From positions 1 through 64,000 of the forward strand of contig JADQBT010000006.1 of the NCBI GenBank assembly GCA_016278485.1: a DNA stretch of 64,000 bases. The letters run 5' to 3'. The notes beneath the pieces were generated by a model. That model had not been told where the DNA came from. It ran no database searches and saw only the letters and a list, made by a program, of their open reading frames with translations. Both the position numbers and the translations under genes were made by a program. This document shows, piece after piece, positions 12,029 to 49,230 of this stretch (position 1 is its first letter; every line of letters starts with the position of its first letter). The DNA is from Halanaerobiales bacterium. Lineage in GTDB: Bacteria; Bacillota; Halanaerobiia; Halanaerobiales; Halanaerobiaceae.

Positions 12029-12044
12029 TCTTAAATAAAAAAAA

Positions 12045-12105: not shown

Positions 12106-13512
12106 CTAAACCTCAGCTGCAACTGTTTTTGCATCATCACTAATAAAAGTTCTTCCATAACCTGTTATAATGGCAAAAATTAATATTATAGCAATTATCC
12201 AGGGATAAAATTGACTAGTCACAACCTGAATAGGAGTTACTGTTACTGCATCGGGAAATGGAGCATAGATTTTGCTGATCATAGAACCTACCACCACAGG
12301 CACCATATAAGGCAGCAAGTAATTTAATGTAGTTCCTGCACAGTCTAGTAAATTTGCTCTTCGATACCCATCTATATTATATTCTTTTCCTAAATTATTT
12401 GCTATTTCGCCAGTGCCAATTATTGCCGCTGTATTTAAACCTGTTGCTACATTTAAAGAAACTAAAATCATTACAATTGTTGCTTCTGCGCTTTTTACTC
12501 CGACGACAAAACGGCTCATAGATTTCATAATAATATTTATGCCACCTGCTTCACTTAATAAGTTTATATGAGCAAAAAGAATTAAAATTACAATAATGGT
12601 GGGAACTGCATTCTCTAAACCTTCTAAAATAATACCACCTGCTCCAAATTGTTCTGGTACAGAAATAATATCACCTGGCAGGATGATACCGGTAAATAAT
12701 CCAATTATAATTCCAGTAATAATACCATAACTTAATGATTCAATTAAATGTTTTTGTTTAAAGCAAAAGTAGATAATTACCGTAGGTACAAGAAGAAATA
12801 AAAGGGTAACTGGTTCTGGAGTTAGCAAATACTCTTCTGCTCCTGGTAAGATCTGGCCTTTACCACCAATAAAAGAATAAAGTAAAAGTGTAATAACTGC
12901 CGCTGGTATTGAATATTTCAAGCGACTCTTTACTACTCCACCTATATCCATGTTTTGCGTAGTTGCCGAAGCTATTGTTGTATCAGATACTGGAGAAAGA
13001 TTATCGCCAAATGCCCCTCCTGAAACAATTGCACCAATCAGTAAAGCTGGATTGGCACCAACAAGATAGCCAACTGGATATAAGATTGGGCCAACTACAA
13101 ATATTGTCCCAACAGAAGTTCCTGTAGATAATGCAACAAGTCCGGTCATGAAAAATGTGGCTGCAACATATTTGCTTCCTACAAAACTAAACTGGATTAA
13201 ATAGGAAGCCAAGGTACTTACAAGTCCACTTTTAGTTAAAATTGCCCCAGAAATACCAGCCAGCATCACAGCAGCTACTAAAATCATAGCAACTTCTGAA
13301 CTAAAACCTCTAACAATAATATCTGCATACTCTCTTTTGTTTTTAACAAAGGGCATCATAAAAATCAGAGGTAATATGAAAACTACCCAATATTCTGGAA
13401 TATTAGCATTCTTTGCTGCAATATATGCTAACCCCACTAAGGCTAATAAAATTGGGCCAAATACCATAAACTTACCACCATAAAACTCTAATTTCTTCTC
13501 ATCTCTACTCAT
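12106..13512 (-). CDS. NhaC-family Na+/H+ antiporter
   Basis: A 468-residue membrane protein with about eleven hydrophobic segments. It has conserved NhaC-type stretches: STGTSVGTIFVVGPILYP (about 128-145), GGAFGDNLSPVSDTTIAS (about 165-182, with the conserved Asp residues) and a C-terminal half with GTTLNYLLPYMVPV. It exchanges sodium, or an organic counter-ion, for protons across the cytoplasmic membrane. It starts 26 bases after the oxidoreductase gene with a good AAGGAAG box and is probably in the same operon. Pairing with ferredoxin-linked acid metabolism suggests a role in pH/ion balance or export of an acid product; substrate is not determinable. Confidence 0.88.
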   Translation of the reverse strand: MSRDEKKLEFYGGKFMVFGPILLALVGLAYIAAKNANIPEYWVVFILPLIFMMPFVKNKREYADIIVRGFSSEVAMILVAAVMLAGISGAILTKSGLVSTLASYLIQFSFVGSKYVAATFFMTGLVALSTGTSVGTIFVVGPILYPVGYLVGANPALLIGAIVSGGAFGDNLSPVSDTTIASATTQNMDIGGVVKSRLKYSIPAAVITLLLYSFIGGKGQILPGAEEYLLTPEPVTLLFLLVPTVIIYFCFKQKHLIESLSYGIITGIIIGLFTGIILPGDIISVPEQFGAGGIILEGLENAVPTIIVILILFAHINLLSEAGGINIIMKSMSRFVVGVKSAEATIVMILVSLNVATGLNTAAIIGTGEIANNLGKEYNIDGYRRANLLDCAGTTLNYLLPYMVPVVVGSMISKIYAPFPDAVTVTPIQVVTSQFYPWIIAIILIFAIITGYGRTFISDDAKTVAAEV

Positions 13513-13538
13513 CTATTTTCTTCCTTTCTCTACTCTTT

Positions 13539-15440
13539 TCATTTTAGATTAATCTTTCTTTTTTCCAGATCATTAACTATTTTTTCTAAACCAAGAGACA
13601 TTAATTTATCTCGAGACGGAATTCCAGTCTTTAGATCCCAACCTCTTGTTTGATAATATTCATCAAGCATCGGTTCCAACTCAACTATACTTCCAGTAGA
13701 TGGTCCACATTCTTCCGGCAATGGTTCATTCAAAAATCTTTGCGGTAAGTTATCGTCTTCTCTTCTAATTCCTTCGCGAACTAGATATGCTCTCTCTAGG
13801 TTGACTACTCTTTCTGTTGCTTGTCTTATTTTTTCTTCAGTAAATTCTAAATCAGTTAAGGCATTTAATAAAACTGCTGCTTCTGCAAATGAAATTATCT
13901 CCATATTGACGACAGTGTTTTTACAGACATCAAGACAATCGGCCAAGGCTGAGCGCTCTTCATAAAATTTGACTACTTTACCCTTACCTTTATATTCTAA
14001 ACGAAAGGCAGATTCTGCTACACCAAAACGCTCAATACCTAACTCACTATCTTCTACAAATTCAAACCAAGGTTCACTTCTGAGATGGTCACCTCCTCTA
14101 CTTGCTACTGCTAATCCCAGAGCATAACCTTTGATTCCTCGCGGATCAGCCTGAAAAATTTCTAATCCTTTGACCTGCATTGCCAAGTTTTTTGCCGTCT
14201 TATCTATTCTTGCTGCAGCTGCTAATGATCCATCTGCGAGCAGATCACCAAAGCCCCTACGAAAAGCTATCATTTCAATCAAATCCAACACTACTTCCGC
14301 ATTACCCCAGTTAAGTTTCAGTCCACCGGTTTGCTCTTCTGTCAACCGTCCCTCTTCAAAAAGTTCCATCGCCAGAGCGATACATTCTGAAGTAGTTATT
14401 ACATCAAGTCCATAGCGATTACATAAATCTACCCCTTTGAGAGCATCTTCTATGCTTTCAATGCCTACTCTGGAAGAAAAACCAGCCAGTCCTTCAAATT
14501 CGGGTCCTTCACTTTTTAAACCCTGATGTTTGCCTTGCTCTATTTCAAAAAAACGGCTACAAGGAATTGTACAGGCAAAACAACCTTTCCCTTTTTTCTT
14601 ATAATTTTGCTCTAGATATTCACCACTTACTTTTTCTGCAGCATTAAACCTACCTGTTTTAAAATGTTTGGTTGCTAGACAACCCAGATCATTTAATGCT
14701 TTTATAAGTTTAGTTGTTCCAAGTCTCATTCTAACTTCATATTCCTGATGATTACGAATCTGCTGATCCATGCTATCTACAGTTTCTCTAAATATTGCCG
14801 GAGATTTAGCCTTTAGATCCTGTTTGCCTCTGACTGCAATTGCTTTTATATTTTTAGAGGCCAGCACAAGACCCATACCTGTTCTAGCTGCTGCTCGCAC
14901 ATGGTTGCAAAAAATTCCAGAATATTTTACACCGTTTTCAGCTGCAGGACCAATAGAAGCGACCTGAACTCTGTCATCTGCTAGCTCTCTCATAATCTCT
15001 TCCTGGGTAAAGAAAGTATCCTTTTCTTTTAATCTTGCGGCTGATCTAATTTCTGCTCTGTTATCAGTTATATAGATATAGCTTAACTCATCTGCTTTTC
15101 CTTCTATAATTACCTGATCAAATCCAGCAAATTTTAGTTCTGGCCCAAAAAAACCACCTGTATTGGAATCACCTAAAATACCGGTTTGAGGAGACTTAGC
15201 TGAAAAATTTACTCTGGCAGCACCAGGAAAGGGAGTACCTGTTAATGGTCCAACACCAATAAACAACTTATTCTCCTCACTTAAGGGGTCTACTTCTGGT
15301 GGCACTTCATCATAAAGTCTTTTCATATTAAGACCTCTGCCTCCAATATAATCTTCAAATAATTTATCCGCTATTTTATCTATTTTAATCTCTTTCGTAG
15401 TCAAGTTTATACGTAAAGCTTGCCCACAATATCCATTCAT
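13539..15440 (-). CDS. Tungsten-type aldehyde:ferredoxin oxidoreductase family
   Basis: A 633-residue member of the AOR family, which oxidises aldehydes to acids (or the reverse) with a bis-pterin W or Mo cofactor and passes electrons to ferredoxin. The N-terminal pterin-binding domain shows GGRGLNMK, GPLTGTPFPGAARVNFSAKSP (start of domain) and NTGGFFGPELKFAGFD. The [4Fe-4S] ligands are Cys287, Cys290 and Cys294 (GCFACTIPC) plus a late Cys in ALADCLDVCKN. ATG at 15440 has GAGGTG six bases upstream, better than the GTG at 15449. It lies between the ferredoxin-like partner and the antiporter. The aldehyde substrate is unknown. Confidence 0.9.
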   Translation of the reverse strand: MNGYCGQALRINLTTKEIKIDKIADKLFEDYIGGRGLNMKRLYDEVPPEVDPLSEENKLFIGVGPLTGTPFPGAARVNFSAKSPQTGILGDSNTGGFFGPELKFAGFDQVIIEGKADELSYIYITDNRAEIRSAARLKEKDTFFTQEEIMRELADDRVQVASIGPAAENGVKYSGIFCNHVRAAARTGMGLVLASKNIKAIAVRGKQDLKAKSPAIFRETVDSMDQQIRNHQEYEVRMRLGTTKLIKALNDLGCLATKHFKTGRFNAAEKVSGEYLEQNYKKKGKGCFACTIPCSRFFEIEQGKHQGLKSEGPEFEGLAGFSSRVGIESIEDALKGVDLCNRYGLDVITTSECIALAMELFEEGRLTEEQTGGLKLNWGNAEVVLDLIEMIAFRRGFGDLLADGSLAAAARIDKTAKNLAMQVKGLEIFQADPRGIKGYALGLAVASRGGDHLRSEPWFEFVEDSELGIERFGVAESAFRLEYKGKGKVVKFYEERSALADCLDVCKNTVVNMEIISFAEAAVLLNALTDLEFTEEKIRQATERVVNLERAYLVREGIRREDDNLPQRFLNEPLPEECGPSTGSIVELEPMLDEYYQTRGWDLKTGIPSRDKLMSLGLEKIVNDLEKRKINLK

Positions 15441-15456
15441 ATCGCTCACCTCTTTT

Positions 15457-16200
15457 TTAAAGAGCTTTCAACTCTGCTGCTGTTCCAAACTGAATAGCTT
15501 CAACCGGACACCTTTTCACACATTCTACTTCTCCCTTACATAGATCGCAAATTAAGGGTGCTTCTCTATCAGCAATAAAAGAAATAGAATCAAATGGACA
15601 GGCTTCTGCACACTTCATACAGCCAATACATTTTTCTTCATTAACTAATACTGCTCCAGTCTCTTTATCTTTAGATAAAGCATTAACTGGACATGCTTTT
15701 AAACAGGAAGCATCTCCACACTGATGACAGACATGAGGTATATCTAACCCCTCTGCTTCATTTTTTATGACTTTAATACGTGCCTTTTCCCCATTAAAAC
15801 TTTCAAAATGGGTAAAACTACAGATTGTTTCACAGGCCCGACAGCCAGTACATTTTTCTTCATTAGCGATCAGCCTGGCTGGTGGTTTTATTTTTTTAGC
15901 TTGATCCTGAGCCAGAATATCACCAGTTACTGTATCCACCTGTATAATTTTAAAAATCACTCTCCCATTTGGGTCAGGACAGGTAAATCGACTTGTATGT
16001 GGAGTCCAGTCATTAGTTTCGTCTATTTTTCTTTGTTTTACTGTCAAAAATGGTAGCATACTTTGCAGAGCCCAGAGACAGATATATCCGTCATCTGGAA
16101 GTATAATTTTACCTCCCTTGACCTCAAAATAGTCTCCAGGTGACATTGGTAGATCACAGAATCCTTCTACTTTTTCAACTTCAACTCTCAGGTCATACAT
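15457..16200 (-). CDS. TIGR04076-like domain fused to a four-cluster ferredoxin
   Basis: Residues 1 to about 92 look like the small TIGR04076 family: EVEKVEGFCDLPMSPGDYFEV, CLWALQSMLPFL, then FTCPDPNGRVIFKI. From about 105 on there are four cysteine groups (CTGCRACETIC, CHQCGDASCLKAC, CIGCMKCAEAC, CDLCKGEVECVKRC), enough for up to four [4Fe-4S] clusters, as in electron-transfer subunits of the DMSO-reductase/AOR type. It starts seven codons' distance from nothing else upstream but an attenuator-like leader, and ends 16 bases before the AOR gene. It is the likely electron acceptor of that enzyme (inferred). The N-terminal domain has no known function to me. Confidence 0.85.
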   Translation of the reverse strand: MYDLRVEVEKVEGFCDLPMSPGDYFEVKGGKIILPDDGYICLWALQSMLPFLTVKQRKIDETNDWTPHTSRFTCPDPNGRVIFKIIQVDTVTGDILAQDQAKKIKPPARLIANEEKCTGCRACETICSFTHFESFNGEKARIKVIKNEAEGLDIPHVCHQCGDASCLKACPVNALSKDKETGAVLVNEEKCIGCMKCAEACPFDSISFIADREAPLICDLCKGEVECVKRCPVEAIQFGTAAELKAL

Positions 16201-17802: not shown

Positions 17803-19404
17803 TTACTTTTTATATACCTGCGATAATGATTGTGGATCAACTAATCCTTTTAAGTCACTTGGATAAATTTCAAATCCAGCAAAATCATTACTATATGCAA
17901 AATTATATTGCTGCACATAGAGAGTTACAACAGGCATTTCTTCAATAAATTCTAACTGAAATTCATCAAGGTTTTCCTGCATAATTTTCTGATTTGAAGC
18001 AAATCTTGCGTCTTCCATGTAAGTATCCAATTTTTCTGAGTTAAGGCTCATAAAATTCAATGAAGCAGTTGAATGATAAAGAGTATACATCGAATCACTT
18101 GCTTCATCGATTATACCCCAACCTCCCAGATTAATATCAAATTTTTTCTGGTTAAATAGCAAGTCACTGTAAGTTGATTTTTCCAGTGGAACCAATTCCA
18201 GTTTTAATCCAACATCCTGAAAGTTAGTGACAAGTATCTGGGCAGTTTTCTTCAGATAAATGTCATTACCATCATAAATTAGTTCTAAAACTACATCTTT
18301 ACCAGATGGGGCATTTAAGATACCATTACCATCAGTATCTTCATAACCTGAATTGGATAATATTTCTGCAGCCTGCTCAGGGTTATACTGAGGTAATTTA
18401 GCTTCAGGATTGACTACATCACCATAGACTGGTGAAATACCAGTATTAATTAATTTACCGTCTCCCCTTAAAGCAAACATAATAATTTTCTTTCTATCTA
18501 TTGCTGTTGCAATAGCCTGTCTCACAGCATCATCTTTTAGGAACTCATTTTTATAATTAAATCCAATGTAGACAAAGCCGAGGCTTGGTGTTTGCTTAAC
18601 TGTAAAATTCGGGTTGCTTTTTAATTCCTGGGCAGCAGTAAATGGAATATCTTTTGCTGTTAAATCAATTTCTCCTCTTTTTAATGCCAGAACCATTGTG
18701 TTTACATCAGGATAGATTCTGAAAATAATTTTTTCCAAATATGGTTTTCCAGCAGGAGAATCAAACCACTCATCAACTCTTGCAAGGGTATAATACTGAC
18801 CTCTTTTGAAATCTACTAATTTAAAAGGACCCATGCCTATTGGTTCTTTATTGGCAAACTCTCTTACATTTTCAATATCTTCAAAAATATGTTTAGGAAC
18901 AATTCTTTGCCAGAAACCAAATGTCCCCATAAACCCTGGATAAGACCGCTTTAAATTATATACTACTGTGGTTGCATCTGGCGTTTCAACACTTTCCACT
19001 TCATTAAAAACATCAGCCTGCCACTGTAATTTCTTTTCATAAAGCAATTCTCCAGTAAACTTAACATCTGCTGATGTAAATGGTGTTCCATCCTGCCAAG
19101 TAAGTCCTTCTTTTAATTTTACAGTTACCTTTTTTCCATTTTCTGAAGTAATTATTTCTTCAGCAACATAAGGAACTTTTACAGAATCCTGATTCATAAC
19201 CAATAAAGTTGGATAAATATTATTTAAAATCCAGGAACCAATTCGATCATTAGAAATAAATGGATTTAAACTATCAGGATCAGTTGTTATGCCAATATTC
19301 AATGTACCACCAAACTTTGCTTCTTCTTGAGCAAAAACCAACCCCGAAGTAGCAAATAAACTAACTAACAATCCTAAAACAACTAAAAAAGCAATCTTCT
19401 TCAT
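17803..19404 (-). CDS. Family 5 peptide-binding protein of an ABC importer
   Basis: A 533-residue extracytoplasmic solute-binding protein. It has a signal peptide (MKKIAFLVVLGLLVSLFATS then VFAQ; I do not see a lipobox cysteine) and the standard order of the family: GGTLNIGITTDPDSLNPFIS, TWQDGTPFTSADVKFT, IGMGPFKLVDFKRGQYYTL, DDAVRQAIATAIDRKKI, YNPEQAAEILSNSGY and a C-terminal lobe. It should deliver oligopeptides to the permeases at 22230-24069. A strong AGGAGGAG box precedes the ATG and a stable hairpin follows the stop codon. Contrast with the permuted paralogue at 30552-32204. Confidence 0.92.
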   Translation of the reverse strand: MKKIAFLVVLGLLVSLFATSGLVFAQEEAKFGGTLNIGITTDPDSLNPFISNDRIGSWILNNIYPTLLVMNQDSVKVPYVAEEIITSENGKKVTVKLKEGLTWQDGTPFTSADVKFTGELLYEKKLQWQADVFNEVESVETPDATTVVYNLKRSYPGFMGTFGFWQRIVPKHIFEDIENVREFANKEPIGMGPFKLVDFKRGQYYTLARVDEWFDSPAGKPYLEKIIFRIYPDVNTMVLALKRGEIDLTAKDIPFTAAQELKSNPNFTVKQTPSLGFVYIGFNYKNEFLKDDAVRQAIATAIDRKKIIMFALRGDGKLINTGISPVYGDVVNPEAKLPQYNPEQAAEILSNSGYEDTDGNGILNAPSGKDVVLELIYDGNDIYLKKTAQILVTNFQDVGLKLELVPLEKSTYSDLLFNQKKFDINLGGWGIIDEASDSMYTLYHSTASLNFMSLNSEKLDTYMEDARFASNQKIMQENLDEFQLEFIEEMPVVTLYVQQYNFAYSNDFAGFEIYPSDLKGLVDPQSLSQVYKK

Positions 19405-24087: not shown

Positions 24088-25284
24088 TCAATCATGCCAG
24101 CATTCTTTTAAAACACGAACAATATTTTTTCCCATTACTTTAATAATTTCTTGATTTGAATAATTATTCTTTATTAACCAGCGAATTATGTTATCAGTGG
24201 CTTCCACAGGGTTTTCTAGTCCTTTAACATATGGTATTCTTTTATGCATAGTAGCAGTCTGCTGATCAATAGACATATTTGCACTAAATAAATCATGTAA
24301 ACCTACGTGGTCACCGAAAAGAGTATCTGCTCCAAAGGCAAGATGATCGATCCCAACCAGCTCTTTAATATACTCAAAATGTTCCATAAAAGAATCAAGG
24401 TTATGAGCTGGATTGTCTTTTGTAATTGTCGTATGAGGAGCAGCTTCAATACCAATCACTCCTCCATTAGCAGCACATGCTTTAAAGACATTATCAGGTT
24501 TTAACCTTTTAATATTCCATAATGACCGGGCACCTATGTGGGTAATGAAAACTGGTTTTTTGCTATAGTTAATCACATCAAGGGCAGTTTGATCTCCTGC
24601 ATGAGAAACATCTATTGCCATTCCCACTTTATTCATTCTTTCAACAGCCTGGCCTCCAAATATAGTTAAACCACCATCTACCTTTTCTTTCAAGCCACTA
24701 CCTAGGTTGTTACTTTCACTATAAGTGATTCCCATCATCCTGACTCCAAGTCCATATAATATTTCAATTCTTTCTACTTCATTTTCAATCATAGTTGCGC
24801 TCTCTACAGCTTTAACCCAGGCAATCTGCCCATTCTCTTTTGCTTTATAAAAATCAACTATTTTTTCTCCCTTAATTAACAAATTTTGATGATCAATATC
24901 ACAGGTACGCATACCGATATCATGGATTACGTCTTCCCATTTCCAGCCAGACTTTGAATGTATAACACAGGTTCCATCCATCATATTATCAAAGATGACG
25001 TCAATACAGGAATTTGCTAATCCGGTAAAACCTGTTACTTCTCTTCCCTGCTTTTCGTATTCCATTAATTGATTAAGATCATCTGGCATTACAGTTGGAT
25101 GTTCATGTAATGCAATTATTAAATTATTCTCAACAAGTTCATGGTATCTTTTTTTTTGTTCAACAGTTAGTTTTACTTGATAGGCTTCAACCCGGTCGGT
25201 ATCACTGGCTAATTTAAATGGCCGGTAATCAAGATTCTTTTCAAGATAATCATAGGATTGGTAGCCGTCATATTTTTTTGCCAT
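24088..25284 (-). CDS. M19-like membrane dipeptidase (first copy)
   Basis: A 398-residue paralogue of the gene at 16508-17713; the two share long identical stretches such as NMMDGTC, GVIGIE and SFMEHFEYVK. Metal residues: HEHP (HxH in place of HxD), Glu in AWVKAVESATMIEN, His in AIDVSHAGDQT, His in PVFITHIGARSLW and Asp in HLAFGADTLFG. No signal peptide. GAGGTGG precedes the ATG. Two copies in one operon suggest divided substrate ranges, or one copy with each permease set. Confidence 0.88.
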   Translation of the reverse strand: MAKKYDGYQSYDYLEKNLDYRPFKLASDTDRVEAYQVKLTVEQKKRYHELVENNLIIALHEHPTVMPDDLNQLMEYEKQGREVTGFTGLANSCIDVIFDNMMDGTCVIHSKSGWKWEDVIHDIGMRTCDIDHQNLLIKGEKIVDFYKAKENGQIAWVKAVESATMIENEVERIEILYGLGVRMMGITYSESNNLGSGLKEKVDGGLTIFGGQAVERMNKVGMAIDVSHAGDQTALDVINYSKKPVFITHIGARSLWNIKRLKPDNVFKACAANGGVIGIEAAPHTTITKDNPAHNLDSFMEHFEYIKELVGIDHLAFGADTLFGDHVGLHDLFSANMSIDQQTATMHKRIPYVKGLENPVEATDNIIRWLIKNNYSNQEIIKVMGKNIVRVLKECWHD

Positions 25285-25854: not shown

Positions 25855-26613
25855 CTATTTACCTACTTTCTTATACAATTCATCCAAATTGTTTACTTTA
25901 CCCGTTGCAAGTTTTGGAGGTAGCATAAAAGCTTTTTTGGAATGTTTAAGGCCAGAACCTAGCAGGGCTTCTGCTATTTTTAACCCCACCAAGGAAGGAT
26001 TAACTACCGGGACCCCGACTTCTTTTTCAATTTCAACCGCTACATCCAAAAAACCCATGGTCATACACCCAAGTACTAATACATCAGCTCTGTCCTCTTT
26101 GACAGCAACTCTACCAATATCAACAATTTTAGCAATTGTTCCAGCACGATCTTGAGCAAGTTCCAGGACAGGTATTTCCAGAGCACGGACTGAAGCAAGT
26201 TTGGGTTCCACACCAGCTTTATAGGCCAGTTCATAGCTACTAGCCACTGTACTTTCAGTGACTGTTAATAATGAAAAACGGTTACCTAGCATAGCTGCAA
26301 CCTGCATACTTGTCTGGCCAGGCCCAACAACTAATAACTGACTAGTGATTTCACGCATCGCATCTAGACCAGGGTCACCTGCACAACCTAGGATAGCAGC
26401 ATCCCAACCTCCCTGTTCTAATTCATATATTTTTTTGGCTGTAGCTGGTATGCTCAGATATTCTTCATACATTGATTCTACAGAAGCAGGACCTTCTGTT
26501 ATACCTATTACTTTTACTTCTACACCAGGAAAAGCCCACTTTTTTAAGAGCCCTTCTCTTCTTTTCATTTCTGCTGGATCCATAATTCCAGGCACAACAT
26601 AAGCAATTTTCAT
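25855..26613 (-). CDS. Asp/Glu/hydantoin racemase family protein
   Basis: A 252-residue protein of the cofactor-independent two-cysteine racemase superfamily. The two candidate catalytic cysteines are in AILGCAGDPGLDAM (about 75) and VLVLGCMTMGF (about 182), and GPGQTSMQVAAMLGNRFSLLTV joins them. It would interconvert L and D forms of an amino acid or hydantoin-like derivative. It is encoded between the ATPase genes and the nitroreductase, in the same run. Together with the D-aminoacylase-like gene it supports D-amino-acid metabolism, though this superfamily also includes decarboxylases. Confidence 0.85.
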   Translation of the reverse strand: MKIAYVVPGIMDPAEMKRREGLLKKWAFPGVEVKVIGITEGPASVESMYEEYLSIPATAKKIYELEQGGWDAAILGCAGDPGLDAMREITSQLLVVGPGQTSMQVAAMLGNRFSLLTVTESTVASSYELAYKAGVEPKLASVRALEIPVLELAQDRAGTIAKIVDIGRVAVKEDRADVLVLGCMTMGFLDVAVEIEKEVGVPVVNPSLVGLKIAEALLGSGLKHSKKAFMLPPKLATGKVNNLDELYKKVGK

Positions 26614-26614
26614 A

Positions 26615-27616
26615 TTAATATTTCTCCTCCTTTAAATCACAAGCTACAAAATGTTCTTCCGCTATTTCTTTTAAATCAGGCTCTTCATCACAACATTTTT
26701 TATCTGCATAACTACATCGGTCTTGAAAGATACAGCCAGCTGGCAGATCAATCGGACTTGCCACATTATTATTAATATTTATCTCTCCAGGCTGGATATC
26801 TGGATCAGGCATCGGCACAGCACTTAATAAAGCCTTTGTATAGGGATGTACAGGATTAGACATTATCTCTCTTGAAGCCCCATACTCAACAATTTTACCA
26901 AGGTACATAATTGCAGTATAATCACACATATATTGAATCAGTGATAAGTCATGTGATATATATACTGTTGTCAAACTCATTTTTTTAGCAATTTCTTTCA
27001 TTAGGTTTAAAACTCCAGCTCTTACAGAAACATCCAACATCGAAACTGGCTCATCAGCAACTATGAATTCTGGCTCAACAATCAGAGCCCTGGCTAGAAC
27101 TACCCGCTGCAATTGACCACCACTCAACTGATGTGGATATTTTTCAAAGAAACTCTCAGCTGGTTTTAAATTAACCTGTTCCAAATTATTTTTAATAATC
27201 TTTTTTCTATCTGATTTATTTTTGCCAATCTCATGAATAATAAGCGGTTCCAATAAGGATCTATAAATCGTAAAGCGAGGGTTAAGAGCTTCATATGGAT
27301 TTTGAAAAACAAGTTGCACTTTTTTTCTAAATTTCTTTAGGGCAACTTTATCCGTGAGATCTGTTATATCTTTACCATCAAAGTAATATTTTCCACCAGT
27401 AGATTGATATAATTTTAAAAGTAATTTTCCAGTAGTTGTTTTTCCACATCCACTTTCTCCGGCCAATCCCAATGTTTCTCCTTTTCTCAACTTAAGACTA
27501 ACCTTATTTACTGCTTTTAAATACCCTTTACCTTTACCTTTCTGAAAAAGATGTTGTTTAACCAGAAAAAATTTGCTTATATTATCTAATTCAACTAAAT
27601 ATTTATTTTCTGCCAT
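26615..27616 (-). CDS. DppF-type peptide ABC ATPase
   Basis: A 333-residue ATPase with Walker A GESGCGKTTTGK, signature LSGGQLQRV and Walker B FIVADEPVSMLD. The C-terminal oligopeptide-transporter extension carries PAGCIFQDRCSYADKKC and ends in an FVACDL cysteine, the pattern tied to an iron-sulfur cluster in this family. It overlaps the DppD-type gene by 22 bases and has a GGAAG box. It energises the permease pair at 28625-30491 and probably also the ATPase-less pair at 22230-24069. Confidence 0.94.
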   Translation of the reverse strand: MAENKYLVELDNISKFFLVKQHLFQKGKGKGYLKAVNKVSLKLRKGETLGLAGESGCGKTTTGKLLLKLYQSTGGKYYFDGKDITDLTDKVALKKFRKKVQLVFQNPYEALNPRFTIYRSLLEPLIIHEIGKNKSDRKKIIKNNLEQVNLKPAESFFEKYPHQLSGGQLQRVVLARALIVEPEFIVADEPVSMLDVSVRAGVLNLMKEIAKKMSLTTVYISHDLSLIQYMCDYTAIMYLGKIVEYGASREIMSNPVHPYTKALLSAVPMPDPDIQPGEININNNVASPIDLPAGCIFQDRCSYADKKCCDEEPDLKEIAEEHFVACDLKEEKY

Positions 27617-28608
27617 GTTTCCACTTCCTTTGCCTTACTTCTTAATTGATCCAAATTATTATGATATATACAGGCTGAAAAATGTCCAAGTTCCAATTCT
27701 TCTAAATCAGGTTCCTCTTTAAAACAAATTTCTTCTGCAAAAGGGCATCTGGGCGCAAATCTACATCCTGCTGGTGGATTAATCAAACTCGGTGGAGCAC
27801 CTTCAATAGATATTAATTCTTTTTCCGGTTCATTTAAATTAGGAAATGCATTTTCTAGTCCCATTGTATATGGATGGAACGCATTTTTTAATATTTGAAT
27901 ACTAGAGCCTTTTTCCACAATTTTTCCTGCATACATGACAGCAATATTGTCACATGTCTGAGCAACAACAGAGATATCATGAGTTATCATAATCATTGCT
28001 AAGCCAAGCCTTTTCCTTAGATCTTTAATCTCTTTTAGTATCTGATGTTGTACGATAACATCTAAAGCAGTTACCGGTTCATCAGCGATAATAATCTTAG
28101 GATCTAAAGCTAGTGCTAAAGCAATTACCGCTCTCTGCTTCATACCACCAGAAAATTGATGTGAGTAATAATTTAACATTTGTGGATTCAAACCAACTAA
28201 TTTAAATAGATTTTCTGCTTTATTGAGAGCCTCATTTTTCGATAAACCACCTTTTAACAGCATCACTTCTAAAAATTGATTTTTAACTGTATAAACTGGA
28301 TTTAATGAATCCATAGCAGCCTGAGGAATCATGGCAATGTCACGCCAGCGCAGTTGGTTCAACTCATCTTCTGTCAGCTTCAGAATATCTTTATTCGAAA
28401 ATTTCACTTCTCCTCCTGGTGAAAAGGCGTTTTTATCCATTACACGCACGATACCCTTTACCGTTGTACTTTTGCCACAACCAGATTCACCAACCAAGCC
28501 AATACTTTCTCCCTCTTTAAGGTTAAAAGAAATTCCATCAACGGCCCTGCTAACCCCTTTTTTTGTTTCATAAAATACTTTTAAGTCATTTACTGATAAT
28601 AGTGCCAT
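27595..28608 (-). CDS. DppD-type peptide ABC ATPase
   Basis: A 337-residue ATPase: Walker A GESGCGKSTTVK, signature FSGGMKQRAVIALALA, Walker B IIIADEPVTALD, and the C-terminal PAGCRFAPRCPFAEEIC cysteine group. ATG at 28608 is preferred to GTG at 28617 because GAGGTG is six bases upstream of it. It partners the DppF-type gene with which it overlaps. Confidence 0.94.
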   Translation of the reverse strand: MALLSVNDLKVFYETKKGVSRAVDGISFNLKEGESIGLVGESGCGKSTTVKGIVRVMDKNAFSPGGEVKFSNKDILKLTEDELNQLRWRDIAMIPQAAMDSLNPVYTVKNQFLEVMLLKGGLSKNEALNKAENLFKLVGLNPQMLNYYSHQFSGGMKQRAVIALALALDPKIIIADEPVTALDVIVQHQILKEIKDLRKRLGLAMIMITHDISVVAQTCDNIAVMYAGKIVEKGSSIQILKNAFHPYTMGLENAFPNLNEPEKELISIEGAPPSLINPPAGCRFAPRCPFAEEICFKEEPDLEELELGHFSACIYHNNLDQLRSKAKEVETWQKINI

Positions 28609-28624
28609 TCTACTCACCTCAATT

Positions 28625-29500
28625 CTAATATTTCTTTAACCTTGGATGAAGAATTTCTTCTGAACCTCTGCCAATATAAAAACCAGCCATAACAACAAGC
28701 ATGATACAGATACCCGGCGGTACAAACCAATAATAAGCTCCTCTTGATAGAGCCTGTGAAACATAAGCATCATTTAACATATAGCCCCAGCTTATAATTT
28801 GGGGATCCCCAAAACCTAAAAAACTAACTGCCGCTTCTGTCAAAATTGCCCAACCAACAGCAAGTGAACCATATAAAAAGGAAAGTGGAAGTATGTTAGG
28901 GGCAATATAGATAAAGATGATGCGCAAATCTGATGCTCCAGATACTCTGGCTCCTTCAATGAAACTCCTTTCGCGAACTGTAAGAACCTGCGCTCTAATA
29001 ACCCGAGCAGTATCTCTCCAGAGAAGAAGTGCCATTGCCACTACGATATTCCAGATACTAGGTCCTAAAAAACCAACAAGAACTATAACAAAGGGAGTAA
29101 ATGGAATACCAAAAGCAATATCAGTTATTCGCATAAGAATAGAATCTACTTTGCCACGATAATATCCAGCAATTAAACCAACTAGTGTACCGACAATCAC
29201 TACAAAAAACGCCGCACTAAATCCTACCATCAAAGCTGGCCTGGCTCCATATACAAGTTGAGAAAATAAATCCCTTCCCATATTAGTTGTACCCAACCAA
29301 AATTTTTGACTAGGCGGTTGATTGAACATAAATTTAGCGCCTTCTCGATGCATTTCGTGAGGATCATAAGGAGCTATCACCGGTGCAAATATTGCTATTA
29401 AAGTAAAAAATATATAAATCATAACCCCAACCATAGCAAATTTATCATTTTTAAGAAATGTATTTATATTTTTAAATGTATTAATTATTATTCTTTTCAT
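28625..29500 (-). CDS. DppC-type peptide ABC permease (set 1)
   Basis: A 291-residue permease with an N-terminal extension and span (DKFAMVGVMIYIFFTLIAIF), PYDPHEMHREG in the first external loop and the EAA loop SFIEGARVSGASDLRIIFIYIAPN. RBS CAGGAGA is five bases from the ATG. It starts immediately after the DppB-type gene, and the ATPase genes follow, giving the standard B-C-D-F order. Confidence 0.93.
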   Translation of the reverse strand: MKRIIINTFKNINTFLKNDKFAMVGVMIYIFFTLIAIFAPVIAPYDPHEMHREGAKFMFNQPPSQKFWLGTTNMGRDLFSQLVYGARPALMVGFSAAFFVVIVGTLVGLIAGYYRGKVDSILMRITDIAFGIPFTPFVIVLVGFLGPSIWNIVVAMALLLWRDTARVIRAQVLTVRERSFIEGARVSGASDLRIIFIYIAPNILPLSFLYGSLAVGWAILTEAAVSFLGFGDPQIISWGYMLNDAYVSQALSRGAYYWFVPPGICIMLVVMAGFYIGRGSEEILHPRLKKY

Positions 29501-29501: not shown

Positions 29502-30491
29502 TTATCTCCTGCTTTCCAGAGTTACTCTTGGATCAAGCAGACTATAAATTATATCAGCCATAAAGTTCATAAAAACCATCACTGCAGCAATTAGGATAAA
29601 TGCTCCTTGTGCTAGTGGATAATCACTAGTTGAAACTGCTTTAACAAGCAATCTACCTAGACCAGGCCAACTAAAAACCGTCTCTATAATTACATTTCCT
29701 CCCATAGCATAACCTACCCCGACTGCCATAGCAGTCACTACAGGTAAAAAAGCGTTTCTAGCCGCATATTTAAACATAACTCTAAATTTACCAAGTCCAC
29801 GCATTTTAGCCATATCAACATATGCTTCATTCATAATATCCAACATATTGGAGCGCATTAATAGAAGCGGAAGTCCTAAAAGATAGATCGACAGAGTTAA
29901 AGCCGGTAAGAATAGATGATAATAAAAACTAATTGATGTTAATTTATCAAATTCCGAATTGAAAACTTGGCCGGCTGCTGATGCACCACCAGAAGGAAAA
30001 ATATTAAATTGAAATGAAAAAACTGCAAGTAGAATCATTCCAACCCAAAATTGGGGAGCTGCCCTTGTAAAAAGTGTAAGAATAATACCCAACGTTTCAA
30101 TTTTTTCTCCTCTATGCCAAGCAAGTAATATTCCACCAAGAATGCCAATTGTATAAGCTATTATAAGTGCAAAAATCATTAAATAAAGTGTATTAGGAAG
30201 TACCTTTGCAATTACATTAGTTACTGAATCCCTGAAGAAAAAAGAATCTCCCAACTCACCCTGAACTAAATTCTTCAAAAATACAAAATATTGTACATGA
30301 AGCGGTTTATCTAAACCAAACTGCTGCATTAAAGCCTGCTGTTGTTCTTCGGTAAATGTTGGATCAATATAAGCAACCAGCGGATTTCCTGGCATTAACC
30401 GGAAAATGAAAAAAAGAATGGTAGCAATAATCCAAAGAGTAATCAACATTTGCCCAAATCGCTCAGCAATAACTTTCCATTTATTCTGCAT
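29502..30491 (-). CDS. DppB-type peptide ABC permease (set 1)
   Basis: A 329-residue permease with RLMPGNPLVAYIDPTF after the first span, about six spans and the EAA loop AYVDMAKMRGLGKFRVMFKYAARNA. ATG at 30491 has GAGGAGGT close upstream; an open frame up to 30542 lies over the preceding hairpin and lacks an RBS, so it is not used. It lies directly behind the permuted binding-protein gene. Confidence 0.93.
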   Translation of the reverse strand: MQNKWKVIAERFGQMLITLWIIATILFFIFRLMPGNPLVAYIDPTFTEEQQQALMQQFGLDKPLHVQYFVFLKNLVQGELGDSFFFRDSVTNVIAKVLPNTLYLMIFALIIAYTIGILGGILLAWHRGEKIETLGIILTLFTRAAPQFWVGMILLAVFSFQFNIFPSGGASAAGQVFNSEFDKLTSISFYYHLFLPALTLSIYLLGLPLLLMRSNMLDIMNEAYVDMAKMRGLGKFRVMFKYAARNAFLPVVTAMAVGVGYAMGGNVIIETVFSWPGLGRLLVKAVSTSDYPLAQGAFILIAAVMVFMNFMADIIYSLLDPRVTLESRR

Positions 30492-30512
30492 CTTAATACC
30501 TCCTCTTGTTTT

Positions 30513-30542
30513 ATGAGACGGTTCATAAAAAAACCGCCTCAT
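30513..30542 (-). promoter_or_regulatory. Hairpin between binding-protein and DppB genes
   Basis: ATGAGACGGTT and AACCGCCTCAT pair with one mismatch, nine bases past the stop codon of the binding-protein gene. No T-run follows the stem on the minus strand, so partial read-through or message stabilisation is more likely than full termination. Confidence 0.65.
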
Positions 30543-30551: not shown

Positions 30552-32204
30552 TTATTCTTCTGGATACAATAATCTTCCCTGACTATCCCACTCATAACCT
30601 GCTTCACTTAAAATTCTTCTTGCTTCTTCTACTCCTCCAGACGGATACTCAATATTTGGATTGTACCAGTAAGTTAGAGCTGGTGAAATTACACTTTTAG
30701 AAGGAACGGCAAATCCTTTCCAGACAAGAGCTGCTACAAATTCTCTTTGGTTAAGTGCTGCCACTGCCCTTCTAAATGCTTTATCACTAAATGGTTTAAT
30801 TCTATGGTTTGGAGCAAGAAATCTGAAGCCAAGATCTATTGAAGACACCATTGTCAAATTATCCTGATTGTTAACTTTCTGTTCTAATAGTTGTTTGTCT
30901 CCCAAATAAGTTGCTAAAAAGTTAATTTCACCATTTTGAATCATCCCTAGGGTAGCTTCCATATTTGGAATAAACCTTACAATCCAGTCTTCAACTTTTG
31001 GTGGTTGAAAGTAATCTTTGTTGGCTGTTAATACTACTTCCTGAGAAAACTTCCAGTTAGAAAATTTAAAAGGTCCAGAACCTACAGGTAGATCCTCCTG
31101 ATAGCTTTCTGCATTTTCCGGTTTGCCTTTAAGATCTTCAATAATTGGTTCCCAAATGTGCTTAGGAATAATATTAATTTTGGCCAGACTTGCAGTTTCA
31201 AAAGCAGCCCATGGTTTGTCAAGCTTAAACTGTAATGTAAATTCATCAACAACTTTTATATTTTCTATTGGATCAACAAATGGTTTGTACATCGGCGCTT
31301 CACCAGTTTTAGGAACTTCAAAAGAAAACTTAACATCTTCAACCGTAACTGGCTGACCATCATGCCACTGCAAATCATCACGTAAAACTACTTCTACTAA
31401 TGTATCATTTACCCACTCAACACTTTTAGCTGCCCAGGGTTTAGGCAATCCATCTGCACCCATCCTCATTAATCTATCCCAAACTAACTCAGTAATCCAG
31501 GAATCAACAGAACCACTAATATATAATGGATTAATGGATTGTACAGTATCATTACTATTTAAAATAATATCTTTCTGTTCTCCTTTGGGATTAATATTTA
31601 AGTATGTCCAGAAGTTTTTAATCCCTAAACCTGCCATTTCCACTACCGAGTCTTCAACAAATACATCATTATTAAAAACTATGTTTACCATCGGATTAAC
31701 TGAAAATATATATGCACTATCTTCTGCAATAATCTCCTGTGCTTTATAAATTAACTTCTGCCTTGCTTCTTTATCAACTGTTACTCGTTGCCGTTCGGCG
31801 ACTTTGTCATATTCAGGATTTTTATAACCGATAAAATTATAGCCATTTTCAGCTGTGCTGGAATGGAAAAGATTATAAATAAACTCATCTGGATCAAGTC
31901 TTTCCGGACGGGCCGTCATTTGCCAACCTGTCATATCCCAAGCATCCCTATCATACCAGACTATATCAGCCATCTGTTCCCAGGGAACTACTTTTGCCTC
32001 TGCTTCAATCCCAACTTTTTTCATATTTTCTACCAGTAAATTTACCGTTTCAAATTCATCTGGCGAAGATGCCTTTGGTCTTGTCAAAATAGAAACTTTT
32101 TTTACTAAGCGATCTTCTTCAGCAGCAAATGCCACCTGCATTGTTAACGAAAATAAGATTATAACCATTGACAATAAAATAACTTTTTTACTTATTCTAC
32201 TCAT
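30552..32204 (-). CDS. Circularly permuted family 5 peptide-binding protein
   Basis: A 550-residue secreted binding protein with signal peptide 1-28 (LFSLTMQVAFAAEE). The domain order is reversed. Residues ~35-205 match the usual C-terminal part (LLVENMKKVGIEAEAKVVPW, YKNPEYDKVAERQR, LIYKAQEIIAEDSAYIF). Residues ~211-550 match the usual N-terminal and middle parts (ILNSNDTVQSINPLYIS, LQWHDGQPVTVEDVKFSF, VGSGPFKFSNWKFSQEVVL, FRRAVAALNQREFVAAL, VEEARRILSEAGYEWDSQG). Joining the end to the residues after the signal peptide restores the normal family 5 order. RBS GAGAGGAG. It feeds the permeases directly downstream. Confidence 0.9.
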   Translation of the reverse strand: MSRISKKVILLSMVIILFSLTMQVAFAAEEDRLVKKVSILTRPKASSPDEFETVNLLVENMKKVGIEAEAKVVPWEQMADIVWYDRDAWDMTGWQMTARPERLDPDEFIYNLFHSSTAENGYNFIGYKNPEYDKVAERQRVTVDKEARQKLIYKAQEIIAEDSAYIFSVNPMVNIVFNNDVFVEDSVVEMAGLGIKNFWTYLNINPKGEQKDIILNSNDTVQSINPLYISGSVDSWITELVWDRLMRMGADGLPKPWAAKSVEWVNDTLVEVVLRDDLQWHDGQPVTVEDVKFSFEVPKTGEAPMYKPFVDPIENIKVVDEFTLQFKLDKPWAAFETASLAKINIIPKHIWEPIIEDLKGKPENAESYQEDLPVGSGPFKFSNWKFSQEVVLTANKDYFQPPKVEDWIVRFIPNMEATLGMIQNGEINFLATYLGDKQLLEQKVNNQDNLTMVSSIDLGFRFLAPNHRIKPFSDKAFRRAVAALNQREFVAALVWKGFAVPSKSVISPALTYWYNPNIEYPSGGVEEARRILSEAGYEWDSQGRLLYPEE

Positions 32205-33772: not shown

Positions 33773-35809
33773 TTACTTGTTTGCTTGTAAGAACCTCTTC
33801 CCTTTTAAAGTTAAACTAGTGCCTTGTCTTGTTTTTCCCACCCTTACTAGACCAAACTCAGCTAAATTATTAATTCTTGTTCTAACCATTTCTGATGAAT
33901 AATCAAAACCCTCTATCTTCATTTGTTTACATATTCTGTTTCTACCAATATTTTTATTAAATTCTTCAGCCTTAAGTAAAATTTCTAAAATTAATAGATA
34001 CACATTTAATTCATCAGTCTCTTGCAAATATTCACAGATTCTTTCGTGTTCTGGTTTTGGCAAATGGCCATCTATTTGATGAAACTCTCTAAATTCAAAT
34101 GGTAAATTTTTGGTATCTACTTGGTTTGAGTCAACAACAGTAATTATATAGTTTACTATGTTTTCAAGTTCTCTGACATTACCTGGCCAATTATGTTCTC
34201 TAAAAACATCATATACTTTTTTTGAAATATTCTTATCACAATCTTTTTGTTTTAAAAAATAATTAACCAAATAATAGATATCTTCTACCCTTTCACGCAA
34301 TGGAGGCACATTAAAATATAAGACTTTTAAACGATAAAATAAATCTTTTCTAAACTTATTCTCTAAGACAAGTTGATCTAAGTCTTTATTTGTTGCAGCT
34401 ATCACCCTTACATTAACAGGGATAATACTATTACCACCAACTCTCATTACTTCTTTTTCTTGTAAGACTCTTAAAAGTCTTGCTTGTAAGTTTGGTGGAG
34501 CATCCCCAATCTCATCAATAAAAATAGTTCCAGTATGGGCCTGTTCAAATAACCCTGGTTTGCCTCCCCTTTTTGCACCAGTAAAGGCACCTTCTTCATA
34601 ACCAAATAATTCGCTTTCAATTAGACTATCTGATAATGCAGCAAAATTGACAGCAACAAAAGGATTGTTGCATCTACCTGATTTATTATGGATAGCCTGA
34701 GCAAATAATTCTTTACCAGTCCCACTTTCTCCTCTAATTAAAACCGTTAAATCATTATTAGCAATTTTCTTTGCAATTTCAACAGTTCTTTTAATCTGTT
34801 TACTTACACCAATGATATCAGAAAAATCATACCTTGCAACAAAACCTTTTCTTCTTAATTTTTTTCTGATTTCATATTCCTGTTTTTGAATCTGTGTTAT
34901 ATCTTTAATACTTATTACTTTTGCATTAAAGATTCCATCATGTTGAATTTTTTCTTTATTTATTAAAAAGTATTTTTTTTTAAATTCGATTAATTCATTT
35001 GATTTATTTTTATCATCTATAATTAATTTTATTAACTTATTACTATCAATTAAATCCTCTATTGAATCCCCAATAACATCTTTTAAAGTTAAGTTTAGTA
35101 AACTAGCAGCAGTTTTATTAATAAACATTACTTCATGGTCCTCATTAATTGCTATTATACCATCATGTGAAGTGAAAAGTAATCCTTCCAGAAGCATATT
35201 TAATTGATTACTATATTTATTTAACTCCACCATTTTCTTGGTATAACGAGCAGTTAAAAAGTTTGTATTATTCAAGGGAAGTTTTAAAGTTAAAAGAATT
35301 TCCATAATAGTAGTTACATCTATTAACTTAAACCCAATATCAATTATCTTTTCAATTCCTGTTGGAACAAGGTATTTACCACCTGGTGTAATCGCAACCC
35401 TCGCATCTCCTTGATCTGCTCCAGGATAATACGCCCTATAATTTAAGTGGTCAATACCCATTTCTATCAATAATTCTACAGTTTCCCTTGCTGTGTAATC
35501 ATGATTACTAACGACAAGTGTCTCTGTTCCAGGTTCAATTTTAAAAATTTGATCTAGGTTTTCCAAATTAAGCGCTCTCCGAACATTAATAACCTTTATC
35601 TTAGAAGGTGTTACTGATCTAACTTTTTCATAAATTGCAGGACTAGAACACAAAACTAGTTCACAATCATCAAGTACAATATTATCATCTGTTAAAAGAT
35701 ATCTTTTTATAATAACATTATCTCCGAAAATACTACTTAATTGTTCATAAAATGATTCTCTTATAACGTCCGCCATGGTGATTAAGGCCATTACTCGCTT
35801 CTCTCTCAT
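33773..35809 (-). CDS. Sigma-54-dependent activator with PAS domain and winged-helix C-terminus
   Basis: A 678-residue enhancer-binding protein. Residues 1 to ~185 form an unassigned sensor region (ETLVVSNHDYTARETVELL). A PAS domain spans about 206-305. The AAA+ domain has Walker A GESGTGKE (360-367), the sigma-54-contacting GAFTGA (407-412) and Walker B TIFIDEIGD. The C-terminus (about 600-678) has no Fis-type helix-turn-helix; ICKQMKIEGFDYSSEMVRTRINNLAEFGLV followed by a GTSLTLKG wing looks like a winged helix. ATG at 35809 has AGGGTG six bases upstream; a TTG at 35827 is less likely. It probably controls the adjacent -24/-12 promoter. Confidence 0.9.
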   Translation of the reverse strand: MREKRVMALITMADVIRESFYEQLSSIFGDNVIIKRYLLTDDNIVLDDCELVLCSSPAIYEKVRSVTPSKIKVINVRRALNLENLDQIFKIEPGTETLVVSNHDYTARETVELLIEMGIDHLNYRAYYPGADQGDARVAITPGGKYLVPTGIEKIIDIGFKLIDVTTIMEILLTLKLPLNNTNFLTARYTKKMVELNKYSNQLNMLLEGLLFTSHDGIIAINEDHEVMFINKTAASLLNLTLKDVIGDSIEDLIDSNKLIKLIIDDKNKSNELIEFKKKYFLINKEKIQHDGIFNAKVISIKDITQIQKQEYEIRKKLRRKGFVARYDFSDIIGVSKQIKRTVEIAKKIANNDLTVLIRGESGTGKELFAQAIHNKSGRCNNPFVAVNFAALSDSLIESELFGYEEGAFTGAKRGGKPGLFEQAHTGTIFIDEIGDAPPNLQARLLRVLQEKEVMRVGGNSIIPVNVRVIAATNKDLDQLVLENKFRKDLFYRLKVLYFNVPPLRERVEDIYYLVNYFLKQKDCDKNISKKVYDVFREHNWPGNVRELENIVNYIITVVDSNQVDTKNLPFEFREFHQIDGHLPKPEHERICEYLQETDELNVYLLILEILLKAEEFNKNIGRNRICKQMKIEGFDYSSEMVRTRINNLAEFGLVRVGKTRQGTSLTLKGKRFLQANK

Positions 35810-35857
35810 TTCTATCACCCTATTCAATTAATATTTCATTAATTATAAACAAATCAA

Positions 35858-46977: not shown

Positions 46978-49230
46978 TCAGAGATCTTCCGTTAACATCT
47001 GAGGTATATTTGTTTTTCTCCATATTGAACTGAGCTTATATATTGTTAGATAATCTACTTTAATACTACCACCCTTAACAGATAATTGAATCTCAGTTTG
47101 CTTTAATTCAGGAAAAACTAAATTTGTAGCCACTACTTCCCCATCATTTAAAAAGATTTCAATAGAAGACCTATCAACAAAAATATTAATTTTTAATTTT
47201 TTACCTTTAATTTTTTTCTCTATTTTTTTATTCAAAAGATAATTATCACTAAAAGTTGTATTCCCAGAATTACTCAGATTAATAAAAATATTATCATCTT
47301 TCAAATTAAAAATGATTAGAGATTCTTGATCTCCGCTTTTATGAAGTGCAAAAGCAAATTTTTCCGCATCATTAATATCTATTTCCGCTTTGATTTCATA
47401 GCTTTGCTCTTTACAATCAATTGTAAAGGTGTCAAAAAGATTATAATTATTTTTTTGATAAATTTTTTCTCGTAATTTTTTTAGCTCTTTTACTGGTTTT
47501 TGTATTAATGTAATTCCCTCTTTACCCTCTCTTAATTTAATCTCCCTTGGAATAGACATCATGCCTCTCCAACCTGTTGTCGGTATTATATTCTGATATC
47601 CAATATTATTCATCCAGCCAAGCCAGATATTTCTTCCTTCAGGCAAATTAGACCAACTTTGTAAAGAATAAAGATCCTGTCCATAGTCAACTAAAAAACT
47701 CTTCTCATAATCACTACTAAACTTTTCTCCGTCAAATTCACCAACAAAATATTGTACTGAAACCCCAGCTTCACCACCATTGGTGTCACCAACCTGTAAA
47801 AGCCATTTTTTCTTTTTGCTTTTTCCTGTATTACCATCTTTGTCACTATCTACTGGCAATTTAATTAAATCCGGACACTCCCAGACTCCACCATGTGAAC
47901 CTATACCAGAACCAAATTCACTTAAATAATTCCATTCCTTTAAATCAGAAGAATTATAAAACCTGACTCTATCACCACAGGCAACCACCATAACCCATTT
48001 TCCTGTCTCCGAATGCATAAAAACTTTAGGATCACGAAAATCTGCAACTCCATAATTTTTTATTACAGGATTATTTATATATTTAATCCAACTACGTCCA
48101 TTATCTTTACTATAAGCAATAGACTGTTGTTGTAAAGAACCCTCTTCTGTCTTAAGGCGGGAGGTATAAATAGCAACCAATCCGGAATTTCCCTTAAAAA
48201 AACCAGTACTATCATTTTTATCTACAACTGCTGATCCAGAATAAATCACACCCAACTTATCATCCGGCTTTAAGGCAATAGGAAGATGTTCCCAATACAA
48301 TAAATCCTTACTAACAGCATGGCCCCAATGCATTGGGCCCCAAACTACATCTACAGGATTGTGTTGATAAAAAAGATGATATTCTCCCTGATAATAAACC
48401 AGGCCATTAGGGTCATTCGCCCAATTTTTTTTAGGTGAGAAATGATATTGTGGTCTATACTTTTCTTTATATAAATTAATTTTTCCCTTATCATAAGGTT
48501 TGGAGAGAGGTGATGATAAAATTTTCTGGATATGTTCATAGTCCTCAGGAGTTCCTATATCTTGCCAGTAACTATCTATCTTAAATGAAGAAATATCTAC
48601 CCCATCATTTATCATTAAGTTAATTGCATGGCTAATTTCATATTCTCCACGCTCTGACTTAGATATTTTTTTAAGATATTTAAATAATATGGGTGAAAAT
48701 ATAAATAAGCCAGCACTATTCCAATTAGTTTTAGAACTGCCTTGCGGAGGTTTTTCAACCAATTTTTTAACAAGTCCATCTTCTTTAATATAAACAGCTC
48801 CACCCTCACTGGGGTCATCTACCCAATTAAGAGAAATTACTGCAGAGACATTATCATAATTTTGATATTGATTATATAATCTTTGATAGTTATCTTTAGT
48901 AATAATAATATCTCCAAAAGATAGCATGAAACTATCGTCTATTAGCGGTTCAACTAAAGAACCAGCATATCCTGTTCCATATTTGTCTAAACTTTGTTTT
49001 ACATATTGTAAATTAACTCTTAATTTATTTCCATCTCCAAAGTAATCAACTATTTGCTGACCCTGATATCCAATTACCACTATAATATCTGTAATACCAG
49101 CATCTCGCATTCCCTCAATAATATGTTCCAGACAATTCTTATTCCCTACTTTTAGCAAAGCTTTTGGCTTGTTTTCTGTAAGTTCTTCTAACCTGGTTCC
49201 TTTACCTGCTGCTAAAATTACACCTTTCAT
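46978..49230 (-). CDS. Fusion of sugar nucleotidyltransferase and GH32 beta-fructosidase
   Basis: A 750-residue single frame. Residues 1 to ~238 are a sugar-1-phosphate nucleotidyltransferase: GVILAAGKGTRLEEL, KPKALLKVG, SFGDIII, LVEKPP and YWQDIGTPEDY. Residues ~256-750 are a GH32 fructosidase with nucleophile motif WANDPNG (270-276, Asp273), FRDP (398-401) and acid/base ECP (451-453), then a beta-sandwich ending with FVDRSSIEIFLNDGEV. Both active sites look complete. No signal peptide, so it acts in the cytoplasm. I saw no good internal RBS for a separate GH32. Its ATG overlaps the mutase stop codon. It probably splits an imported fructoside and activates the released sugar phosphate (inferred). 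Confidence 0.88.
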   Translation of the reverse strand: MKGVILAAGKGTRLEELTENKPKALLKVGNKNCLEHIIEGMRDAGITDIIVVIGYQGQQIVDYFGDGNKLRVNLQYVKQSLDKYGTGYAGSLVEPLIDDSFMLSFGDIIITKDNYQRLYNQYQNYDNVSAVISLNWVDDPSEGGAVYIKEDGLVKKLVEKPPQGSSKTNWNSAGLFIFSPILFKYLKKISKSERGEYEISHAINLMINDGVDISSFKIDSYWQDIGTPEDYEHIQKILSSPLSKPYDKGKINLYKEKYRPQYHFSPKKNWANDPNGLVYYQGEYHLFYQHNPVDVVWGPMHWGHAVSKDLLYWEHLPIALKPDDKLGVIYSGSAVVDKNDSTGFFKGNSGLVAIYTSRLKTEEGSLQQQSIAYSKDNGRSWIKYINNPVIKNYGVADFRDPKVFMHSETGKWVMVVACGDRVRFYNSSDLKEWNYLSEFGSGIGSHGGVWECPDLIKLPVDSDKDGNTGKSKKKKWLLQVGDTNGGEAGVSVQYFVGEFDGEKFSSDYEKSFLVDYGQDLYSLQSWSNLPEGRNIWLGWMNNIGYQNIIPTTGWRGMMSIPREIKLREGKEGITLIQKPVKELKKLREKIYQKNNYNLFDTFTIDCKEQSYEIKAEIDINDAEKFAFALHKSGDQESLIIFNLKDDNIFINLSNSGNTTFSDNYLLNKKIEKKIKGKKLKINIFVDRSSIEIFLNDGEVVATNLVFPELKQTEIQLSVKGGSIKVDYLTIYKLSSIWRKTNIPQMLTEDL

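Follow-up and report, generated by a model that had tools for sequence, protein, structure and literature searches.

The locus and its genes

The window, 64,000 nucleotides of contig JADQBT010000006.1 from a Halanaerobiales bacterium, carries on its minus strand an operon for a Dpp/Opp-type importer. One gene of this operon, here called cpSBP, encodes a family 5 solute-binding protein (SBP) in which the two parts of a normal family member appear in swapped order. Its parts and its neighbours, in the direction of transcription, are the following.

33773..35827, minus strand: sigma-54-dependent activator with a PAS domain, the likely regulator; kept upstream in L021 and L022
32286..33494, minus strand: amidohydrolase, first gene of the operon (PF01979, E 5e-40); also beside cpSBP in L021, L022, L023 and L068
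30552..32204, minus strand: permuted family 5 SBP (cpSBP) gene, 550 amino acids, frame intact
32121..32204, minus strand: cpSBP residues 1-28, predicted Sec-type signal peptide ending ...VAFAA, cleavage site judged by eye
31593..32105, minus strand: cpSBP residues 34-204, counterpart of the last (C-terminal) third in normal family 5 proteins, moved to the front
31890..31910, minus strand: RPERLDP loop, residues 99-105, which marks the permuted family by two inserted residues and the conserved Arg102
31572..31592, minus strand: cpSBP residues 205-211, junction of the old C terminus with the old N terminus, placed by rotation peak and alignment
30570..31571, minus strand: cpSBP residues 212-545, counterpart of the N-terminal plus middle regions in normal family 5 proteins, moved to the end
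29502..30542, minus strand: DppB-type permease, same operon, within the clade of cpSBP-associated permeases
28625..29500, minus strand: DppC-type permease, without the beta-propeller insert that some relatives have
27595..28617, minus strand: OppD/DppD-type ATPase by sequence similarity; orthologues come after cpSBP elsewhere
26615..27616, minus strand: OppF/DppF-type ATPase by sequence similarity; orthologues come after cpSBP elsewhere
25855..26613, minus strand: Asp/Glu/hydantoin racemase family protein (PF01177, E 7e-29); also at cpSBP loci L021-L024 and L092
25297..25854, minus strand: nitroreductase-family protein
24088..25284, minus strand: M19 (renal/membrane dipeptidase) family protein

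The sequence agagaggagtttcataATG ahead of the cpSBP gene is plausible as a ribosome-binding site. We read no lipobox in the signal peptide, and in the AlphaFold2 model residues 12-30 form a helix, with pLDDT below 50 over residues 1-31. Because the frame is full-length and both halves are present, we rejected the idea of a truncation or pseudogene. A predicted signal peptide together with adjoining Dpp/Opp-type permeases and ATPases is the context of a family 5 receptor.

A scan of the window for sigma-54 promoters gave 44 matches against 33 expected by chance, that is, near chance. There is a weak GG-N10-GC site near position 33580, upstream of the amidohydrolase gene, which we do not claim as a promoter.

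Several other features of the window deserve a brief description. Three successive M42-like aminopeptidase genes (8896-12029) adjoin an NhaC-type antiporter and an aldehyde:ferredoxin oxidoreductase-like gene with its Fe-S partner (12106-16200), all read from the sequences. A group II intron-type reverse transcriptase lies at 1197-2543 (PF00078, E 2e-38). The 1426-amino-acid protein encoded at 3333-7613 matches a STAND-type NTPase barely over the cut-off (PF25199, 34.1 against 34 bits); NTPases of this kind are often found in defence or signalling proteins. Finally, a single 750-amino-acid reading frame at 46978-49230 encodes what looks like an unusual fusion, with a nucleotidyl transferase domain at about residues 2-236 followed by a GH32 glycoside hydrolase at about 263-731.

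Order of the two halves

The Pfam family SBP_bac_5 (PF00496) matches cpSBP with 211.7 bits, far above its curated cut-off of 32.4, and the match is split in two stretches. The best of these pairs residues 254-543 with profile positions 2-284. In a genome-wide Pfam scan, profile positions 2-286 fall in the 3' part of the gene and positions 288-366 in the 5' part. In the same scan each of the ten other family 5 loci of this genome gives one unbroken stretch. These include the paralogue at 17803-19404, which, as had been proposed, has the standard order.

A rotation test gives the same picture. A profile built from ten SBPs with normal order, all encoded in this genome, was run on cpSBP and on rotations of its mature sequence in steps of three residues. 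Without rotation, residues 216-542 match model positions 35 to about 352-355 with about 189 bits, and residues 45-181 match positions 360-488 with 58 bits (E 2e-20), which is the reverse of the normal order. The score peaks when the sequence is rotated at about residue 205, where a single match spans positions 35-488 of 512 with 254 bits. Because model positions 35-352 and 360-488 of 512 are covered, both halves of cpSBP are complete except for their extreme ends. The original prediction, in which a DppA/OppA-type protein is cleanly permuted and has complete halves at about residues 35-205 and 211-550, agrees with both profile mapping and rotation.

Among proteins of solved structure, the best sequence match for both halves is AppA of B. 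subtilis (1xoc). Residues 212-541 of cpSBP align with AppA 23-347 and residues 54-172 with AppA 377-490, the latter with E 3.5e-10. Profile mapping, rotation and relatives all fail to find the standard N-to-C order of the SBP_bac_5 parts in cpSBP. What they find is two complete segments, swapped with respect to an unpermuted homologue, which is how a natural circular permutant is recognized.

One could also argue that two unrelated half-domains have converged on something that merely resembles a permuted SBP. The front half is indeed the weaker match, at 58 bits, and folds poorly when modelled alone. Nevertheless, it is homologous by sequence, both to the profile of normal SBPs and to AppA, and profiles of the two halves also detect normal-order SBPs that carry both parts in the opposite order. 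We consider convergence highly improbable.

Predicted structure

The AlphaFold2 model of cpSBP, made with 13 aligned sequences, is one compact fold with a mean pLDDT of 87 and a pTM of 0.85. Residues 205-550 superpose on AppA 18-358 with Z 25.3 and an rmsd of 4.7 over 333 residues (VIA-align, linear). When the full model is searched with Foldseek and VIA-align, the match comprises residues 205-550 only, against the first two thirds of AppA and many family 5 proteins. This partial coverage is as expected because both aligners are linear. The model thus supports a single compact fold for cpSBP at the level of prediction. A fold unlike family 5, which would have counted against a permutation, did not appear; the model is a confident single SBP-like fold, within which the linear match covers 205-550.

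Modelled alone, residues 34-204 give a poor model (pLDDT 67, pTM 0.61). Among the 50 matches listed for it all are of family 5 type, and the best PDB matches are weak (E 0.003 or worse). We set this model aside as proof, given its low confidence and matches that are weak though consistent.

Relatives and distribution

To classify gene order we used separate profiles of the two halves and took all proteins in which both were found. Besides the window protein, 64 proteins are permuted and 34 normal, and none is ambiguous. The permuted relatives come from other genomes and plasmids of Halanaerobiia, Alphaproteobacteria, Halobacteria, Actinomycetota and Chloroflexota. Two other Halanaerobiales assemblies (L021 and L022) encode proteins that are 76% identical to cpSBP over the whole length, with the operon conserved. 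Collinear identity over the whole length is 45-54% for Alphaproteobacteria, 30-34% for Halanaerobiia and neighbours, and 24-34% for haloarchaea.

In samples of whole genomes searched with cpSBP as query, 92 of 145 Halobacteria genomes give a match at E 1e-20, which is an upper bound, a minority matching the larger half only. Among Alphaproteobacteria, 12 of 289 genomes match at E 1e-45. Permuted copies are found in 2 of 198 Actinomycetota and 1 of 201 Chloroflexota at E 1e-35, and none of 185 genomes of Gammaproteobacteria matches at E 1e-40.

The window genome is a 39-contig draft, and such a sequence could result if assembly or binning had misordered two pieces of a normal SBP gene. However, identical order and breakpoint recur in independent genomes and finished plasmids, and the whole-length similarity to L021 and L022 extends to the conserved operon. 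Since 64 relatives share this order and no protein was ambiguous, chance and assembly error are excluded, and we give an artefact practically no credence. Across phyla the proteins keep intact, full-length frames at identities of 24-76%, which implies selection. The search for further permuted members and their operons, suggested together with the original prediction, led to a large family of single origin rather than to an oddity of one genome.

In the plasmid records, permuted copies are annotated merely as "ABC transporter substrate-binding protein". The copy of Neorhizobium galegae VafX2 (L098:10010-11663) is annotated as a hypothetical protein plus an SBP, which suggests a frameshift in the record or the strain.

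A probable single origin and a shared breakpoint

We aligned the halves of 83 SBPs separately and joined them in one common order for a tree. A single branch, with bootstrap/aLRT support of 99/98 and recovered in 100% of 200 bootstrap trees, separates the permuted proteins from the rest. The tree is unrooted, and its normal-order members were sampled non-exhaustively, through their similarity to cpSBP. Within this sample, the sequences show a single origin of the permutation. The window protein and the alphaproteobacterial cpSBPs group at 100/100, which suggests lateral transfer between those lineages.

Most permuted members have an "I.xxT"-like strand straight after the signal peptide and a C-terminal end of the form "AGYxW..GRLxxP". 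This common start and common end imply that the breakpoint is shared. Nearly all permuted relatives stop, as had been noted for cpSBP, at the loop from which normal members go on.

The permuted proteins also share a marker in a ligand-side loop. Normal members read like GW.GD...DP here, whereas permuted members read like W.GRPERLDP, two residues longer. Arg102 occurs in 46 of 50 permuted and in none of 33 normal rows of the alignment. Of the 33 normal rows, 24 have a gap in the inserted column 99 and all 33 in column 100. We take this to be the loop that in DppA and OppA bears the Asp binding the ligand amine.

We found no tandem-duplicated intermediate: L025, L026 and L127 have long stop-to-stop frames, but these hold one copy of each half. 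Direct repeats at the cpSBP junctions are short and imperfect only, and uninformative. A candidate for the state before the permutation is a normal-order SBP (L032:1-7242) that, like its permease, branches close to the permuted clade, with weak support. Its operon includes an N-acyl-D-amino-acid deacylase-like gene. L129 and L130 are further candidates for an unpermuted sister.

The importer

At most permuted loci cpSBP is followed by DppB, DppC, OppD and OppF. All 25 DppB permeases that adjoin a cpSBP, and one that lies 3 kb off in Natrarchaeobius (L028), form one clade with support 99. The second DppB of the window, beside a normal SBP, falls outside this clade. The clade implies that the permuted receptor has been inherited together with its own permeases.

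One branch of cpSBP systems shows two further features of the importer. In L068-L080 and L082 (e.g., L072:11427-13217), the DppC-type permease has about 280 extra residues between the first membrane helix and the transport domain. The insert matches PSII_BNR/YCF48 (PF14870, E 1.3e-9) and probably forms a beta-propeller directed towards the binding protein. The two ATPases of this branch are apparently fused into an OppD-OppF protein of about 760 residues (L072:13156-15447, with equivalents in L068-L080).

Could the permuted proteins have lost import altogether, and serve as sensors or orphan binding proteins whose docking constraints were relaxed by the permutation? A sigma-54 activator lies upstream, the Natrarchaeobius SBP stands about 3 kb from the permeases in opposite orientation, and L030 and L031 are without an adjoining transporter gene. 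Most permuted SBPs, however, directly precede permeases and ATPases, and the permeases are co-inherited. A loss of import is therefore improbable in our view, though we rate it somewhat above convergence or an artefact.

We think it very likely, from sequence and structure prediction, that cpSBP is a true and functioning SBP of family 5 (cluster C) and the receptor of the importer encoded directly downstream. The protein would be exported by means of its signal peptide. A short linker (about residues 205-211) would join the old termini, and the new chain ends would lie at the surface, in the loop that leads from the "...AGYxWDxxGRLxYP" hairpin to the following strand. With the old ends so linked and the chain opened in a surface loop, the usual two-lobed fold would be retained. 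Ligand capture, docking and hand-over to the permeases would then proceed as in normal Dpp/Opp systems. The permutation itself probably arose once through tandem duplication followed by loss of the outer parts. Of this account, sequence comparison shows the permutation, the shared breakpoint, the wide spread and the co-inheritance of dedicated permeases.

Possible ligands

One alternative is an ordinary dipeptide or oligopeptide receptor that has kept its ligand through a neutral permutation. An M19 dipeptidase and peptidase genes are indeed nearby, and other permuted clusters carry M20 and M28. But where DppA and OppA have their conserved Asp loop, cpSBP has Arg and a two-residue insertion, and hydantoinase and racemase neighbours are atypical of Dpp/Opp systems. 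We regard an unchanged ligand as rather unlikely, while noting that it concerns the ligand only.

Since the Asp loop is replaced by an Arg loop, and racemase, hydantoinase, amidohydrolase and dipeptidase genes are neighbours, our tentative suggestion, with the odds slightly against it, is a modified or cyclic dipeptide, a ureide or a D-amino-acid derivative instead of a plain peptide. In the window, cpSBP lies near the Asp/Glu/hydantoin racemase, the amidohydrolase, the M19 dipeptidase and further peptidases. Alphaproteobacterial loci combine the importer with hydantoinase/oxoprolinase A and B, M20 and M28 hydrolases, an Asp/Glu racemase and IclR regulators, and in Halalkalicoccus the importer stands alongside creatininases and M20. 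Neighbour genes vary between permuted clades. Racemase genes occur at 5 of 24 permuted and 0 of 30 normal-order loci, and M28 genes at 6 of 24 and 0 of 30, an enrichment that is biased because the marker genes were picked from permuted loci.

Comparison with known systems and significance

With the family 5/cluster C SBPs (DppA, OppA, AppA and NikA; PF00496) cpSBP shares homology of both halves and the importer set DppB, DppC, OppD and OppF. It differs in that the halves are swapped, the termini lie inside a loop, and an Arg loop with an insertion replaces the Asp-rich loop. AppA, which among solved proteins matches both halves best in sequence and the larger half best in structure, has the standard order and binds a nonapeptide; identity over the larger half is about 24-26%.

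A natural circular permutation of an ABC transporter SBP has been described once before in the literature that we searched. TpMglB-2 (Tp0684) of Treponema pallidum is a circularly permuted glucose-binding protein that still binds its ligand and belongs to a family across bacteria, "cluster Bc" (PMC4990184). In contrast to cpSBP, TpMglB-2 is a sugar-binding, MglB-like protein of cluster B, with another fold class, breakpoint and ligand, and the two permutations are not a homologous event. A Pfam scan of cpSBP gives SBP_bac_5 only, without an MglB-type (Peripla_BP_4-like) match, and cpSBP is not a member of cluster Bc. Literature searches on permuted OppA/DppA, SBP_bac_5 or OpuA returned nothing else relevant, most subscription papers lying outside the search. 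The main text of the CIRPIN paper (PMC12667903) makes no mention of SBPs, and Pfam and NCBIfam gave no separate model for a permuted family. Permuted family 5 SBPs are apparently an undescribed family, spanning salt-loving bacteria, archaea and other bacteria.

One may speculate further that the permutation is itself functional, moving the signal-bearing or membrane-tethered end to the other lobe. The permuted proteins might then be a separate Dpp/Opp class, "cluster Cc", with dedicated permeases and, in one branch, a DppC beta-propeller, for cyclic ureides and D- or N-modified dipeptides. We consider this unlikely as a whole, less so than a loss of import.

Family 5 SBPs are among the most abundant nutrient receptors of prokaryotes, and tools and annotation assume one linear family. 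As a consequence of the swapped order, linear profiles and linear structure aligners detect only part of the permuted proteins. Assigning a ligand would put a name to a transport class common among Halobacteria. One permutation that spread across domains while keeping its breakpoint and permeases is a natural experiment on chain order and on the role that this order plays in Venus-flytrap closure, anchoring and docking.
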